From: Alphaproteobacteria bacterium
GTDB taxonomy: Bacteria; Pseudomonadota; Alphaproteobacteria; Micavibrionales; Micavibrionaceae
NCBI GenBank assembly: GCA_021776025.1
Contig: JAJFGR010000018.1
Span: 1 to 64,000 of the forward strand
Direction of reading: 5' to 3'
Length of the DNA: 64,000 nucleotides
The notes below the pieces were generated by a model. It was given only the letters and a program-made list of their open reading frames with translations. It was not told the DNA's origin and ran no database searches. The first letter of the stretch is position 1. The number at the start of each line of letters is the position of its first letter. A program made the position numbers and the translations under genes. Shown here one piece after another: positions 687 through 25,992 of the stretch.

Positions 687-760
687 TGGAGCGGGCGACC
701 GGGATCGAACCGGCATAACTAGCTTGGAAGGCTAGTGTTCTACCATTGAACTACGCCCGC
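687..760 (-). tRNA. tRNA-Gly (anticodon TCC), CCA encoded
   Basis: The reverse complement folds as a cloverleaf. The acceptor stem GCGGGCG / CGCCCGC is perfect. The anticodon stem CTAGC / GCTAG encloses the loop CTTCCAA with anticodon TCC, and the T-loop is TTCGATC. The discriminator T is followed by an encoded CCA at 687-689. It reads toward tuf, matching glyT of the E. coli tufB operon. Confidence 0.97.
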
Positions 761-796: not shown

Positions 797-1498
797 TTAA
801 TAAGCAAGAAATTCGAAGTCTTTTTCGGCAAAATAATCGATCAGCGCACAGACTTCATCGAAAATGTCAGGTTGATCATGCAGCAGCAAAACATGGGCGT
901 GCTCGTGGGTTTTTAGGCCTTCATCGCTGTTTATGCGACTTTTTAGGTCATCCATTGTTTTAAGAGGCTGGTGGCCACGATGTTTATCATTGAGCATCCA
1001 ATCCCGCGCGGTGAACGTGTAGAGGCAATCTGCGGCATCAGATCGATATTCAGGTGGCATATTGTTAAACGGCTGCGTGCAGCCTTGGTCTTTCAGATAT
1101 TGCTGGAGGATACTGGTTTTGTTGTTTTCGCCCACGCTGGCGGCATCTATCTGTTCGATCTTTTTGCCATCCCCGCGATCAATATACGGAAAGCGATAAT
1201 ATTTGCCGGGACGGGCGATCTCACAACGCGCATAGGCAGCCTCAATAAGATGTTCACAAAGTTCAAAATCATCGCACCATTCTTGGGGCTCCATTTCGCC
1301 AGCGGGTTTATGTGCAAAACTATGATTGCCAATGACAAGGCCTTTCCCAATTGCGCGTTCTATGGCCTTCGGATTTTCTTGCAGATGAACCCCGCGAACA
1401 AATAGTAGTGCAGGAATTTTTCGATCTGCCAAAAAATCAACAAGATCGTCGGTGCGCTCAGACGGGCTGTCATCAATTGTCAGATAGGCTTTAGGCAT
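797..1498 (-). CDS. Polysaccharide deacetylase family (NodB fold) protein
   Basis: Probable metal-dependent deacetylase of N- or O-acetylated sugars in a polysaccharide; the substrate is not predictable. All five NodB motifs are visible in order in the 233 residues: TIDDSPSE near residue 7 (metal Asp), HSFAH near 59 (two metal His), RFPY near 102, ARDWMLND in the second half, and LLLHD near the C terminus. No signal peptide is apparent, which is unusual for enzymes acting on wall or capsule, so it may be cytoplasmic or exported by another route. Its ATG overlaps the end of glk by 8 nt, so the two are translationally coupled. Confidence 0.85.
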   Translation of the reverse strand: MPKAYLTIDDSPSERTDDLVDFLADRKIPALLFVRGVHLQENPKAIERAIGKGLVIGNHSFAHKPAGEMEPQEWCDDFELCEHLIEAAYARCEIARPGKYYRFPYIDRGDGKKIEQIDAASVGENNKTSILQQYLKDQGCTQPFNNMPPEYRSDAADCLYTFTARDWMLNDKHRGHQPLKTMDDLKSRINSDEGLKTHEHAHVLLLHDQPDIFDEVCALIDYFAEKDFEFLAY

Positions 1499-2423
1499 TG
1501 AGAAGCCCTTTAAGCGCGGGATAAGGATAGGTGATGTGATAGATTGGTGTGGCCTTCAGGTCGTGGGTTACGGACCCTACGCTTTCCACACAGAACCATT
1601 TTTCAAACAGCTCAAAATCAAATTGATTAACTTCGATTAAACGCTCCAGCACCCCGCCGGTTAGATACAAACCGCCATAAGCGTGGCCGGTGATCACGGC
1701 GGTGGCCGCAAACAGACCAAAAAACTCATGAAATAGCCGCAGGGCTTCTTGCACCTGTGGATCCTGCGTTTCCTTCAACATGGCTTCGGGCGTATCAGCG
1801 CGGCGAATTTTGCCGCTGATCAAACATTGGGCTGCATAGATATTATAAAGTCCCGGGCCGCTGACAAAATTTTCGAAAACTGGAATGGTTTGGTCTGTTT
1901 TTAAACGCTGAGCCGTTTGCACAATCATAAACTGTTCATCAGTTAGCGTTGCAACAGGCATGTGGCCGCCATGGGTTTTTTGAACATGTGGCGGGTCGCC
2001 ATCATGCAAATACCCAAGCCCTAGGCCTGTGCCGGGACCGAGCAGGCATTTATTTTTTGAAGCGCCGCTCGCGTCTTTTAGCGTTTCAACATCTTCGGCT
2101 GCTAAATTCGTTAGAGCCCAAACTCCGGCTTCGAAGTCATTCAAAATAATTTCGATTGTCCAGCCTGCTTGGTTGAGCCCCGCGGGATCAATGATCCATT
2201 TGTTTTGATTTACAAATTTCCAAACCCCGGCATCTTCGTAGCCGGCCGTGGCGATCCGCAATGAACCTGAAGTTTCCAAGCCCTGCTCTTCACAATATTG
2301 GCCTAGAGCCGTTTCAAGGCTTTCAAAATCTTCCACTTTGTACTTAGCAATATGATCTGGAGCGCCTGCCTCTGCTGATGCAAAGCGCACAAATGTCCCG
2401 CCGATGTCTGCAAGAATGCTCAT
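1491..2423 (-). CDS. glk: Glucokinase
   Basis: ATP-dependent phosphorylation of glucose to glucose 6-phosphate in the cytoplasm. The N terminus MSILADIGGTFVRFA carries the phosphate-binding DIGGT motif. A central GPGTGLGLGYL and the later LTGGVLERL segment fit the bacterial Glk (COG0837) type rather than ROK kinases. The frame opens slightly earlier with TTG at 2439-2441. The ATG at 2421-2423 is preferred because it is preceded by a G-rich Shine-Dalgarno and starts directly at the conserved domain. About 310 residues is the normal length. Confidence 0.88.
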   Translation of the reverse strand: MSILADIGGTFVRFASAEAGAPDHIAKYKVEDFESLETALGQYCEEQGLETSGSLRIATAGYEDAGVWKFVNQNKWIIDPAGLNQAGWTIEIILNDFEAGVWALTNLAAEDVETLKDASGASKNKCLLGPGTGLGLGYLHDGDPPHVQKTHGGHMPVATLTDEQFMIVQTAQRLKTDQTIPVFENFVSGPGLYNIYAAQCLISGKIRRADTPEAMLKETQDPQVQEALRLFHEFFGLFAATAVITGHAYGGLYLTGGVLERLIEVNQFDFELFEKWFCVESVGSVTHDLKATPIYHITYPYPALKGLLNA

Positions 2424-2479
2424 AAGACCATCATGCCCCAAGCATTTATGTTTGGAAATCTGTTTTTAAAGACGCCGTC

Positions 2480-3120: not shown

Positions 3121-3312
3121 TTAGTAGGCTTTTTTAACGCCGTCAGCGACAGCTTTTTCAGCGTTGTCTTTTGACATGATAGCGCAAAGCGTCGTGCTAC
3201 ATTTCGGGCAAGCGCCCTTGGCCATAAAGCCGCCTTTTTTTGTTTGATGAATGGCCGGGTCGTTCATTTCAACGCCCTTTTCCTTACATTTCACACAATA
3301 TGCTGTAATCAT
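3121..3312 (-). CDS. Small zinc-ribbon protein, DUF5679-like
   Basis: A 63-residue protein with two CxxC knuckles: YCVKCKEKG near residue 5 and GACPKCSTTLC near residue 33. They are arranged as a single zinc ribbon. The segment between them (MNDPAIHQTKKGGFMAKG) resembles the DUF5679 family of tiny ribbon proteins. The role is unknown; the fold suggests nucleic-acid or protein binding. A clear SD (AAGGAG) precedes the ATG and a strong terminator follows the stop, so it looks monocistronic. Confidence 0.75.
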   Translation of the reverse strand: MITAYCVKCKEKGVEMNDPAIHQTKKGGFMAKGACPKCSTTLCAIMSKDNAEKAVADGVKKAY

Positions 3313-3435
3313 TTTTAACTCCTTAGTGTTGGGAAGAATCTCATAATTTTGTTCACTATAGCATCTTTTCCTTATGTGTTCACTGTATTCGCAAGTTTAT
3401 CCGCAAGCCTGTGAATATCAGTAATAAGTAAAATA

Positions 3436-3517
3436 GAGAGAGACAGAATTCGAACCTGCGCACACATACGCGGGCGGAGTTACAATCTGCTGCCTTTAAC
3501 CACTCGACCACCCCACC
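3436..3517 (-). tRNA. tRNA-Tyr (anticodon GTA), degenerate-looking, no encoded CCA
   Basis: The D-arm, the anticodon loop TTGTAAC with anticodon GTA, a class II long variable arm and the T-loop TTCGAAT are all recognisable. Pairing is poor, however. The acceptor strands GGTGGGG and CTCTCTC give one T-C mismatch and three G-U pairs. The anticodon stem has an A-C mismatch and the T-stem closes with G-U. CCA is not encoded, whereas both Gly tRNAs in the window encode it. Its place, divergent from rlmB and upstream of tRNA-Gly(TCC) and tuf, is the usual tRNA-Tyr site. It is either functional with weak stems or a decaying copy. Confidence 0.7.
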
Positions 3518-3600
3518 ACAGACGTATTCGCACGTGGTAAAGCCTAGCCCGCAGAAAAAAGACTTTCGCCCCCCGTGCCAAGGCTGTAACCTGCCCAGCG

Positions 3601-4428
3601 ATGAAAAAACATAAAACCAAACACAATAAAAACGCGTCCAAAAGGCCGGAGCAGAAACCGCGCCCAGACAAACAGCACAGCTCTGAAAGAAGAGCCGCAC
3701 AGGCAAATCTCTATGGTTTTCACGCTGTGCGTGAAGCATGGCTCAATGAAGAACGGCAGATTAATACATTTTATTGCACGCAAAATGCGCTGGAAGGGTT
3801 TGAAGAAACCCTTGGCGAAGCCTTGCAAAAGGGGCTGGTCCGCCCACAAGCCACGATCCTTGATAAAGCGCAGCTCGATAAAACTTTGCCGCAAGGCTCT
3901 GTGCATCAGGGCTTGGCGCTGGTAACTTCGGGCGCGCCGGAAATGGATTTAGAAGATATTCTTATCCGTGAACGCAGCAAAGAAAGCAGTCTTATCGTTA
4001 TTCTTGATCAGGTCACCGATCCGCATAATGTGGGGGCTATCTTGCGCAGTGTCTGCGCGTTTGGAGCGGGCGGCGTTATCATGCAAAAAAAGCATGCGCC
4101 GGAGCTTAATGGTGTTCTCGCCAAGACCGCCTGTGGGGCGATTGAGCATGTTCCTGTAGCCTATGAAACCAATCTCTCGCGCTCAATCGAGACGCTACAG
4201 AAACACGGATACTTCGTTTACGGACTTGATGAGCGCGGTGAAGATATTGCACAGGCGAACACAAGTGGAAAATCGGTTTTGGTTTTGGGCGCCGAAGGAC
4301 CGGGGTTAAGGCGCCTTGTAAAAGACCATTGCGATAGCCTGCTCCGGCTTCCTATGCACGGCTCGATGCCCAGTATAAATGTCTCAAATGCTGCAGCTGT
4401 TGCACTCTATGCATTTTCCAAAGGTTAA
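3601..4428 (+). CDS. rlmB: 23S rRNA (guanosine-2'-O-)-methyltransferase RlmB, TrmH/SpoU family
   Basis: S-adenosylmethionine-dependent methylation of the ribose of a 23S rRNA guanosine. The N-terminal 35 residues are a lysine-rich tail. A SpoU substrate-binding domain follows (LYGFHAVREAWLN), then the knotted SPOUT domain with motif 1 DQVTDPHNVGAILRS, motif 2 LVLGAEGPGLRRLV and motif 3 RLPMHGSMPSINVSNAAAVAL. All are well conserved and the 275-residue length is normal. It is divergently placed from the tRNA-Tyr gene. The regular start is the ATG at 3601. Confidence 0.92.
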   Translation: MKKHKTKHNKNASKRPEQKPRPDKQHSSERRAAQANLYGFHAVREAWLNEERQINTFYCTQNALEGFEETLGEALQKGLVRPQATILDKAQLDKTLPQGSVHQGLALVTSGAPEMDLEDILIRERSKESSLIVILDQVTDPHNVGAILRSVCAFGAGGVIMQKKHAPELNGVLAKTACGAIEHVPVAYETNLSRSIETLQKHGYFVYGLDERGEDIAQANTSGKSVLVLGAEGPGLRRLVKDHCDSLLRLPMHGSMPSINVSNAAAVALYAFSKG

Positions 4429-7994: not shown

Positions 7995-8762
7995 ATGGCA
8001 AAACCCATTCAAATTCTCGCTGGTGAAAGCCAATATATTCAAGGACTGTTTTCACGGCCCGATGAGGAGGCGCTTGATAGAGCAGACCAATTCCTCATTA
8101 TCATGGTGCACGGTTTTCCGGGTAATAAAGATACGCATGAAAATGTTTTTCAAAGCTTAGAGGATGTGGCCGCCGCTAAAAATTATCATAGTTTTCGTTT
8201 TGATTTCCGGGGCTGCGGCGAAAGTGATGGCCGTGAAGAAGACTTTACGCTCGATAGCGCTTCTGAGGATTTGCGAAATGTTATAGATTGGGCGAAAGAC
8301 CAAGGCTACAAACGCTTTGTTTTTGTTTGTGAGGGCCTCGGCGTTCCCATCACGTTTATGAATGCGCCAGAACAAACATTATGCTTCATAACTTTATGGC
8401 CGATGCTGGATATGAAGCGCATAGCTGTAAAGAACTTCAAGTCTGATGACATTGAGAAAGAATGGAAGAAGGCCGGTTATGCGATTCTAAACGAACACCG
8501 GATTGGTATATCTTTTATCGAACAGCTGCAGGAAGCCGAAATTACGGGCGCGGTTAAGGATCTGAATAAACCTATACTTGTGATGCATGGGGCACAGGAC
8601 GAGGTTTCGCCGATTGATCAGCTGGATATTATCCGGGCGCACGCCAATGCTAGGCGCGTGGAGATTACCAGCTTTCAAGATGGAACCCATGGTCTGCCGC
8701 AGCTAAACCACCGTAAAACCATGTTTTACCATATTCTGCAATTTATCGAAAAATATACCTGA
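7995..8762 (+). CDS. Alpha/beta-hydrolase-fold protein lacking the serine nucleophile
   Basis: The 255 residues carry the fold markers of a serine hydrolase: the oxyanion-side HGFPGNKDTHENVF, FDFRGCGESDG, the acid-loop segment MHGAQDEVSP and the late His in DGTHGLP. Where the nucleophile elbow GxSxG should stand the sequence reads FVCEGLGVP, with Gly in the place of Ser. It may therefore be a non-catalytic relative or use another residue. The ATG at 7995 is chosen over an upstream frame opening at 7947 inside polA. It follows polA closely and is probably cotranscribed. Confidence 0.75.
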   Translation: MAKPIQILAGESQYIQGLFSRPDEEALDRADQFLIIMVHGFPGNKDTHENVFQSLEDVAAAKNYHSFRFDFRGCGESDGREEDFTLDSASEDLRNVIDWAKDQGYKRFVFVCEGLGVPITFMNAPEQTLCFITLWPMLDMKRIAVKNFKSDDIEKEWKKAGYAILNEHRIGISFIEQLQEAEITGAVKDLNKPILVMHGAQDEVSPIDQLDIIRAHANARRVEITSFQDGTHGLPQLNHRKTMFYHILQFIEKYT

Positions 8763-20030: not shown

Positions 20031-20951
20031 TTATTCAAGTAAACCCATTAAACGTAAATTTTCGTTCTTTTCTGCCCAATTTTCTTGGACCTTGACGAAA
20101 AGTTTAAGGTGGATGCGCGCATCAAAAAGTTTTTCTAACTCTTCGCGCGCTTCCTGCCCAATCTGTTTAATGCGGCTGCCACCTTTGCCAAGCACGATGG
20201 CTTTTTGGCTATCGCGTTCAACAATAACAACCTGATCAATTTTGATGCTGCCATTATCAAATTGTTCCCAATCCTCGGTATGGACCATGGCCGCATAAGG
20301 AAGTTCCTGATGGAGCTGGTTGAAAATTTTCTCGCGGGTGATTTCGGCGGCCATCAAGCGCATTGGCATATCGGTGATTTGATCTTCGTCGAACAGCCAC
20401 GGGCCAACGGTCAAATTTGCGGCGAGATGTTCCAGTAAAGTTTGAGTGCCATGACCTTTAAGAGCGGAGATCATAAAGGTGGCTTCATAAGAGAACGCGT
20501 CGTTGAAGCTGGCGGCAAGAGCGAGAAGCTCCTCTTTTTTCACCTTGTCGGTTTTATTGAGGGCAAGAAGAACAGGTTTATTTTTTGGCAGTTTTTCTAT
20601 GAGCGCTTTGTTTTTATTCAAGGGGTTTTTCATTGATACATCAACAAGATGGATCGCAAACTCGCTATCCTCCAACGCATCAAAGGCCGCGCCGACCATG
20701 GCTTTTTCCATGATTCTGGAGCCACCGGCATCAAAAATGCCGGGCGTATCGATCAAGATAATTTGGGCGTTATTATGCAAGGCAATGCCAAGGATGCGGT
20801 TACGGGTTGTATGAGTTTTTGGCGAAACGATGGAGACTTTTGAGCCGACGAGGAGATTGATCAGTGTCGACTTTCCAGCGTTGGGGAGACCGACAACGCT
20901 CACAAAGCCGCAAGTGGTCTTTTCATCATTTTCATTATTGCCCGTGCTCAT
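20031..20951 (-). CDS. era: GTPase Era
   Basis: GTP-binding protein that helps 16S rRNA maturation and 30S assembly. The G1 motif is GLPNAGKSTLINLLVG, G3 is DTPGIF and G4 is LNKTDK. A C-terminal KH RNA-binding domain (IVLGKGGSRIKQIGQEAREE) follows. At 306 residues it has normal length. Its ATG overlaps the end of rnc by 4 nt, so the two are coupled. recO, which often follows era, is not present here. Confidence 0.97.
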   Translation of the reverse strand: MSTGNNENDEKTTCGFVSVVGLPNAGKSTLINLLVGSKVSIVSPKTHTTRNRILGIALHNNAQIILIDTPGIFDAGGSRIMEKAMVGAAFDALEDSEFAIHLVDVSMKNPLNKNKALIEKLPKNKPVLLALNKTDKVKKEELLALAASFNDAFSYEATFMISALKGHGTQTLLEHLAANLTVGPWLFDEDQITDMPMRLMAAEITREKIFNQLHQELPYAAMVHTEDWEQFDNGSIKIDQVVIVERDSQKAIVLGKGGSRIKQIGQEAREELEKLFDARIHLKLFVKVQENWAEKNENLRLMGLLE

Positions 20952-24173: not shown

Positions 24174-25992
24174 GCTTGGATGAGACTGCCCCCTCCTCTG
24201 CTTCCACCTTTTCAAATAAGATCAGCACATCCTCCTCTTCAAAATTCTCTAACGTTTTTGGTGTGCGCAGATCAAGCCGTCCTTTTGGTGAAATGTGACC
24301 AATGACTTTGACTTGCTCTTCTTCTATATTTTTTAACAGCGCGTCAAAATTTTTCTGCTGGCCCACGCGCGTTGCACGAAAACGCCAGCCTTGCATAAAC
24401 TCGCCAGAAATGTCCCAAAAATCCATTTCAGGACGGCCGAATGTGCGCCCGCGAATGGTGTGGGCAATCTGGCGGCGCTCATGTTCGTCTTCTTCGTGGG
24501 GCAGAAACTGATAGACGTTATCGCGCCCATATTCATGGATGAACATATTGCAGACCAAAGCGTTATAAGCGGGGTTGTTGCTGAGCGCAAGAATGGCATT
24601 ATACCGCGCCAGTTCGAGATGGTATTCGGTTTCTTCAGATAAAATTTCTCCGTAATAAACGGGAATATCAGAGAGCCGCGCCCCGCGCAGGGCATGCCAA
24701 TTTTTATCAGCAATCATCACATCAACTTCACGGCTTTTTAGCGTTTTAGCAAACTGAAGTGCCCATTCGGACGCGCCGACAATAATGAGGCTGTCTTTGC
24801 CGGCATAAGCCAAACCCAGTTTTTTACCGAAAGGTTTGGCGGTCAGACCGTGGGCAAAGACGGTAAAAAGGACAATGGCAAAAGCGAGCGCTAGAATTTG
24901 CTGACCATCTTGATATCCTATTGCCACAAGAGACGGCCCCAATACACCAGCCACCGCAGCGCACACTATCCCGCGCGGGGCGATCCAGCCCATGAGCACA
25001 ATTTCTTTCCAGTCCATTTTGGTGCCAAGGCTGGAGGCAAACATGGTGATTGGGCGGATGACAAAAAGTAGCAAAGCAATAAAGGTAAAGCCGCGCCAAT
25101 CAATGGAAAATAGAATGGCCGGATCGATTTTGGCGGTGAGCAGGATAAACACACTGGAGACCAGCATAATAGAAATGGTTTCCTTAAATTTTTTGAGTTC
25201 CTCGATAGAGGTTATACCCATATTGGCAAGCGCGACACCCAGAATGGTGACGCCGATAAGACCAAAATCGTGCTGGATTGAGTTACAGATTACGAAATAA
25301 ATCAGCACCGATGAGAGCAAAAATGTCGGTTTTAGATATTCAGGAATAGCGTCGTGATTGAACAACCAGGAAATGGCATAAGCAAACATGGTGCCGAAGA
25401 AGATGATCATGACGATGGCCAGAATTGTACCGGTGAAAAAGCCGCTGAGATTCATATTTTCAACCGCGTTCAGGCGGAAAAATTCATAGCATAAAATGGC
25501 CAAAACCGCGCCGATGGGGTCATTAATTATACCTTCCCATTTGAGAATGGAGGCCGGGCGTTCCTTTAAATGCGCATTTTTAAGCAGCGGCATGATGACC
25601 GTTGGCCCGGTGACAATTAGAAGCGCACCAAAGGTGCACGCCACAGGAAGACTAAGGCCGGCGACATAATGCAGAGCAAAGGTGGTAAGAAACCACGCTA
25701 AGGGGCCGCCAACAATAATAACTTGGCGGATGGAAGCACGAGCCTGGCGAATTTCTTTGAAATTAAGATTGAGCGCGCCTTCGAAAAGAATAATGCCGAC
25801 AGCCAGAGAAATGATGGGTTGAAGCAAGTCACCCAAGAGTATTTCAGGCTGGACAACACTCAGGACCGGACCGGCCAGAAAACCGCCCATGAGCAGGAAA
25901 ACAATGGCCGGGGTTTTAAACTTCCAGCCCAGCCATTGCGCGAGAATAGAGAAAAATGCAATCCATGAGATTTGGGCGAGAATATCGCTCAT
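24151..25992 (-). CDS. Cation:proton antiporter (CPA family) with a C-terminal nucleotide-binding domain
   Basis: Inner-membrane Na+/H+ or K+/H+ antiporter. About twelve hydrophobic segments occupy residues 1-390. The ion-site segment VTGPTVIMPLLKNAHLKERP and GIINDPIGAVLAILCYE fit NhaP-type CPA1 members. A Rossmann-like domain follows (SLIIVGASEWALQFAKTL) and a TrkA-C-like end (KVIGHISPKGRLDLRTPKTL), suggesting regulation by a nucleotide. The ATG at 25990-25992 (MSDILAQISW) is preferred over the frame opening at 26061, which would overlap rsh. Confidence 0.88.
   Translation of the reverse strand: MSDILAQISWIAFFSILAQWLGWKFKTPAIVFLLMGGFLAGPVLSVVQPEILLGDLLQPIISLAVGIILFEGALNLNFKEIRQARASIRQVIIVGGPLAWFLTTFALHYVAGLSLPVACTFGALLIVTGPTVIMPLLKNAHLKERPASILKWEGIINDPIGAVLAILCYEFFRLNAVENMNLSGFFTGTILAIVMIIFFGTMFAYAISWLFNHDAIPEYLKPTFLLSSVLIYFVICNSIQHDFGLIGVTILGVALANMGITSIEELKKFKETISIMLVSSVFILLTAKIDPAILFSIDWRGFTFIALLLFVIRPITMFASSLGTKMDWKEIVLMGWIAPRGIVCAAVAGVLGPSLVAIGYQDGQQILALAFAIVLFTVFAHGLTAKPFGKKLGLAYAGKDSLIIVGASEWALQFAKTLKSREVDVMIADKNWHALRGARLSDIPVYYGEILSEETEYHLELARYNAILALSNNPAYNALVCNMFIHEYGRDNVYQFLPHEEDEHERRQIAHTIRGRTFGRPEMDFWDISGEFMQGWRFRATRVGQQKNFDALLKNIEEEQVKVIGHISPKGRLDLRTPKTLENFEEEDVLILFEKVEAEEGAVSSKPKPDTSK

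Follow-up and report, generated by a model that had tools for sequence, protein, structure and literature searches.

The tRNA-Tyr gene in the 64,000-nucleotide stretch of Micavibrionaceae DNA analysed here (the window) is very probably a pseudogene, situated at the ancestral site beside rlmB and relieved by an intact copy on another contig of the same genome. The gene is thus read as a fossil and not as a new kind of tRNA. In the following, G000 denotes the window's genome, C10 the window's contig, C5 the contig with the intact copy, g1 the window's genus and g46 another genus; the relatives in the public genome set include Micavibrio MAGs.

Structure and setting of the window gene

The window gene retains a GTA anticodon and a long variable arm, and its D arm, anticodon loop and T loop are undamaged. 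Its stems were examined by column alignment with 23 intact relatives. In the acceptor stem the third pair is mismatched (at T3) and the second, fourth and sixth are G-U; the anticodon stem has an A-C mismatch at the third of its five pairs, the T-stem carries G-U pairs at both ends, and the middle one of three pairs in the variable arm is G-U. The initial annotation had already described the acceptor defects, the A-C mismatch, the G-U closing pair of the T-stem and the lack of an encoded CCA, as well as four differences from an ideal CCCCACC partner strand, three of them C-to-T, and all of these were seen again; the second G-U pair of the T-stem and a change of the discriminator from A to T are additional. 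The span given in Table 1 exceeds the earlier one by 1 base because the discriminator position is counted in. It had also been proposed that the same weak stem, together with good expression, in close relatives would make the gene ordinary, yet the acceptor, anticodon, T and variable stems are fully paired in 23/23 aligned relatives.

The discriminator is A in all 23 of these relatives, and A73-CCA occurs in 95 of the 96 tRNA-Tyr genes collected, the sole exception being the window copy. Every other tRNA of G000 that was inspected encodes its CCA. A73 is a tyrosine identity element in all three domains of life (PMC9976931).

The window copy reaches 31.2 bits with RF00005, barely over the gathering score, and 35 ordinary tRNAs of G000 reach 50.5-78.9 bits. 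A tRNA-Tyr model specific to the family gives it 69.2 bits, the C5 copy 109.2 and the canonical copies of 89 genomes 83-112; values near 69 bits fall in the range of 90-base class II tRNAs, which would be cross-matching tRNA-Ser and tRNA-Leu. The predicted fold of the window RNA (-20.6 kcal/mol, z +0.94) is no better than that of shuffled sequences and is not a cloverleaf, and intact tRNA-Tyr copies fold at -29.7 to -33.7 kcal/mol, 9-13 kcal/mol more stably.

The setting of the gene is conserved. It lies 83 bases from a divergent gene which, from its SpoU/TrmH type, we take to be rlmB, and upstream of a gene that is presumably a glucokinase (glk). In the congener G006, which has an intact tRNA-Tyr, polA, a hypothetical gene, rlmB, tRNA-Tyr, glk, a deacetylase gene and tRNA-Gly(TCC) follow in the same order as in the window. 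The RlmB proteins of the relatives studied share only about 60-66 per cent identity with that of G000. The 104 genomes of the family contain 75 intact tRNA-Tyr genes that are divergent to rlmB and within 2 kb of it and 15 that lie elsewhere, some of the latter being counted so because contigs end. Judged by this distribution, the site beside rlmB is the family's ancestral tRNA-Tyr site, and the ancestral locus assumed at the outset is borne out by the synteny with rlmB, polA, glk and tRNA-Gly. The DUF5679 gene downstream of tRNA-Tyr was not found at this site in the relatives fetched. No relics at rlmB were found in the genomes with a relocated tRNA-Tyr in which they were sought (G040, G092, G096, G036, G060, G088).

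The promoter-like block of the window gene is largely undamaged, with a -35 of TTGGCA vs TTGACA in the relatives at rlmB. The block common to tRNA-Tyr genes consists of TTGACA followed by approximately GCGAAAGTCTTTTTTCTGC, its -10 part being unlike TATAAT. At the far end of C10 (G000:C10:155000-172600, L115) the tetranucleotide profile deviates, with a correlation of about 0.65 with the window; this part perhaps consists of repeat-rich protein genes.

Table 1. Position of the features discussed, in the window (C10) or on the contig named
Feature	Position	Strand	Basis or remark
tRNA-Gly(TCC), intact	687..760	(-)	ARAGORN; neighbour conserved in G006
Glucokinase-like gene	1491..2441	(-)	conserved neighbourhood, same order in G006
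DUF5679 protein, downstream of tRNA-Tyr	3121..3312	(-)	PF18930, E 1.4e-10
3' flank ATTTTACTTATTACTGATATTCA	3412..3434	(-)	best match is the 3' flank of G097 (g46), 18/22; weak evidence alone
Degenerate tRNA-Tyr, anticodon GTA	3435..3517	(-)	ARAGORN and Rfam
Promoter-like block TTGGCACGGGGGGCGAAAGTCTTTTTTCTGC	3551..3581	(-)	ortholog of the promoters of tRNA-Tyr beside rlmB in relatives
rlmB-type 23S rRNA methyltransferase gene	3601..4428	(+)	divergent neighbour
Intact tRNA-Tyr(GTA), full stems, A73, CCA	G000:C5:1169-1254		DNA search and ARAGORN
tRNA-fMet, full gene	G000:C20:7829-7905		
tRNA-fMet 3' pieces on C20	G000:C20:19121-19168, 20373-20418		pieces overall L151-L154
tRNA-fMet 3' pieces on C13	G000:C13:2067-2115, 8481-8531, 25051-25098		
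tRNA-fMet 3' piece on C2	G000:C2:19294-19338		

The intact copy and the proposed course of decay

The assembly searched for tRNAs comprises 2.3 Mb in 24 contigs and is 99.98 per cent complete, with a reported contamination of 0.44 per cent. The search returned 35 tRNAs of at least 50.5 bits and four of about 30 bits, the window gene being among the four. The genome-wide count of tRNA-Tyr genes that had been called for is two, namely the window copy and the intact copy on C5, and G000 has one TyrRS, encoded at C13:97822-99051. C5 carries chromosomal housekeeping genes, including the sole thymidylate synthase of G000 and the only tRNA-Arg(CCG) detected there, and its tetranucleotide correlation with parts of the window (0.96) equals that among the window parts themselves; by gene content and composition, it is a genuine part of the G000 genome. 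An ORF for a large serine recombinase (PF00239, PF07508, PF13408; G000:C5:51863-53448, L088:11864-13448) overlaps this tRNA-Arg(CCG) with its end, the tRNA probably being the attachment site.

The initial annotation had left two explanations standing, that a sole tRNA-Tyr tolerates or repairs its weak stems or that a second copy has taken over while this one decays. The second is supported by the C5 copy together with the conserved rlmB site and the fully paired relatives. What marks a pseudogene is found here, with an intact isoacceptor in the same genome, intact orthologues at the same site in relatives and a score far below that of functional copies; what marks a functional tRNA-Tyr, namely paired acceptor, anticodon and T stems and A73 with an encoded CCA, is lacking. 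The weak stems say nothing on the tolerance or repair of weak tRNAs.

In the proposed course of events, the C5 gene, with its own promoter, would supply tRNA-Tyr, and selection on the window copy would have been lifted. The latter would then have gathered mostly transitions, C-to-T and others, and undergone a short indel or slippage in the CT run at its 3' end, with the loss of A73, CCA and pairing in three stems. The C5 copy is presumably the one in use, and the window copy would not be charged. The window gene and its best match differ by 6 transitions and 2 transversions, as well as by gaps in the CT-rich 3' end whose placement is ambiguous. The G-U pairs of the acceptor stem are the automatic result of C-to-T changes opposite G and are thus no sign of selection for pairing.

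The damage is unevenly distributed, altering 0/28 invariant columns at positions 1-45 vs 8/20 later (Fisher p 0.005 without the CCA). That selection has kept the 5' half intact was considered and is not pressed, because the 3' damage may represent one slippage event plus transitions. The undamaged 5' half and anticodon loop and the largely undamaged promoter imply either that decay is recent or that a transcript is possibly still made.

Possible mosaic composition and competing explanations

The two tRNA-Tyr genes of G000 hardly resemble the products of a simple duplication. The best matches of the sequence upstream of the C5 copy are in g46 (G097 40, G096 28, G092 25), with g1 at 16 or less, and those of the sequence upstream of the C10 copy are G012, G005, G016 and G002 (39-32), with g46 at 16 or less; the C10 upstream region thus resembles the window genus and near genera. 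For the tRNA body and 3' flank of C10, the best eight matches are all from g46, and the anticodon and variable arms of the C5 copy are nearest to those of G002, G004 and G016. The motif GCGTATG occurs, among 96 tRNA-Tyr genes, only in the C10 copy and five g46 genes. In a tree of the bodies, supports are 59-85 for the grouping of C10 with g46 and 78 for that of C5 with G002 and G016. These patterns are suggestive of a native-type promoter joined to a g46-like body in the window copy, and of the converse in the C5 copy.

One possible origin, proposed tentatively and rated as somewhat unlikely, is that the resident tRNA-Tyr recombined with an acquired gene of g46 type and that a crossover within their first ~27 bases, which are identical, gave rise to both copies. 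The window hybrid, with native promoter and 5' strand and a foreign body, may then have carried a T3-T80 mismatch in its acceptor stem from the outset and so have become the copy to decay; the mismatch predicted at its birth is at position 3, the position of today's mismatch. The upstream regions, the g46-like body and 3' flank of C10, the restricted motif and the body tree all favor such an event. In spite of this agreement, the sequences are short, the supports in the promoter tree are weak (23-46) and the match of the C10 3' flank is not significant by itself, being equalled in 37/300 shuffles. Moreover, a simple reciprocal crossover should swap the downstream flanks, yet C10 retains glk, deacetylase and tRNA-Gly as in G006. 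That a g46-like acquisition produced two hybrids, of which the one at rlmB is decaying and the one on C5 took over the function of an essential single-copy tRNA-Tyr, is accordingly put forward as a doubtful scenario. Recombination refines the pseudogene explanation and does not replace it.

It is very unlikely that the window copy is a weak but working second tRNA-Tyr, or that it has another role, as a decoy or a source of tRNA fragments. Such a gene would be in keeping with the intact anticodon loop, D arm and T loop and with the largely undamaged promoter, and CCA can be added to a tRNA by nucleotidyltransferase, which could supply the missing end. A73 is gone, however, and the acceptor, anticodon and T stems are defective; the RNA shows no preference for the cloverleaf, the -35 is mutated, and the G-U pairs, being the expected outcome of C-to-T decay opposite G, do not testify to constraint. 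An artefact of assembly or binning, with a wrong 3' sequence on C10 or a C5 contig derived from another organism, is very unlikely too: the assembly is indeed fragmented, with contig starts lying 3.4 kb from the window copy and 1.2 kb from the C5 copy, yet the damage extends over the acceptor, anticodon and T stems and the variable arm, and C5 has single-copy genes and a matching composition in a genome of low reported contamination.

Least likely of all is that the window copy is an att-site fragment of an integrative element comparable to the tRNA-fMet pieces of G000, for although elements adjoin tRNA-Tyr in relatives (e.g. the recombinase of G002), such fragments have lost the 5' half and still have the 3' end, CCA included, whereas the window copy is full length, has a promoter and is damaged at its 3' end; the retained 3' part with CCA, the missing 5' part and the linked recombinase expected of a fragment are not found in it, and a pattern search of G000 gave no second tRNA-Tyr 3' piece apart from the C5 gene.

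Several observations on integration and on broken tRNA loci were made alongside. The six tRNA-fMet 3' pieces, which extend from the anticodon region to CCA, measure 45-51 bases and lie on three contigs of G000 (Table 1), look like the result of repeated integration of elements at tRNA-fMet. Beside tRNA-Tyr, G002 has a large serine recombinase with DUF2924 (L098:8988-10900, by profile hits) and G092 an integrase-like ORF (L156:7927-9141), and in G096 the 3' end of a serine-recombinase-like ORF (L162:8224-9804) overlaps the tRNA, the latter two being assigned by eye; in relatives, tRNA-Tyr seems to act as a hotspot for integration. At rlmB, the tRNA-Tyr of G066 stops after about base 57 (L132:2400-2343), and in that of G102 (L128:2950-2538) approximately 360 N separate the 5' 32 bases from the 3' end; neither assembly yielded an intact tRNA-Tyr. 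The gap in G102 suggested at first that a group I intron might be present or the tRNA split, which was rejected given that the gap consists of N; Rfam detected no intron in the loci scanned, L128 included. Contigs end inside tRNA-Tyr or 0-120 bases 3' of it in G084, G056, G112, G111, G054, G016 and G042, more commonly than expected, perhaps owing to variable integrated elements. A plasmid search returned only Azospirillum tRNA matches.

Comparison with known systems and significance

The closest known counterpart is the canonical tRNA-Tyr (type II, GUA) beside rlmB in Micavibrio-like Alphaproteobacteria. The window copy shares with it the position, orientation and promoter block as well as the D arm, anticodon loop, T loop and long variable arm, and differs in its broken acceptor, anticodon and T stems, replaced A73 and absent CCA. 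Low-scoring, non-canonical tRNAs of prokaryotes have been described mostly as partial copies derived from element integration or CRISPR (PMC9897764). The window copy resembles them in its low score, its acceptor defects and its automated prediction as a tRNA, but is full length and has a promoter. Extra tRNA copies are gained by duplication or transfer (PMC7661048, PMC4041420), and here likewise the presence of two genes for one tRNA renders one of them dispensable; unlike in those cases of turnover of the tRNA set, the old copy has been caught part-way through decay at an ancestral site that can be mapped. The window tRNA-Tyr thus clearly exemplifies a known process, and its possible hybrid origin is the one unusual aspect.

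As a caution, in the output of tRNA finders the dead gene passes for an ordinary tRNA-Tyr. A single-copy essential tRNA gene can relocate only via a two-copy stage, and G000 displays this stage with both participants readable, the intact newcomer and the decaying gene at the ancestral site. If the hybrid origin is true, this genome would also show an essential tRNA gene being swapped through intragenic recombination, caught midway.
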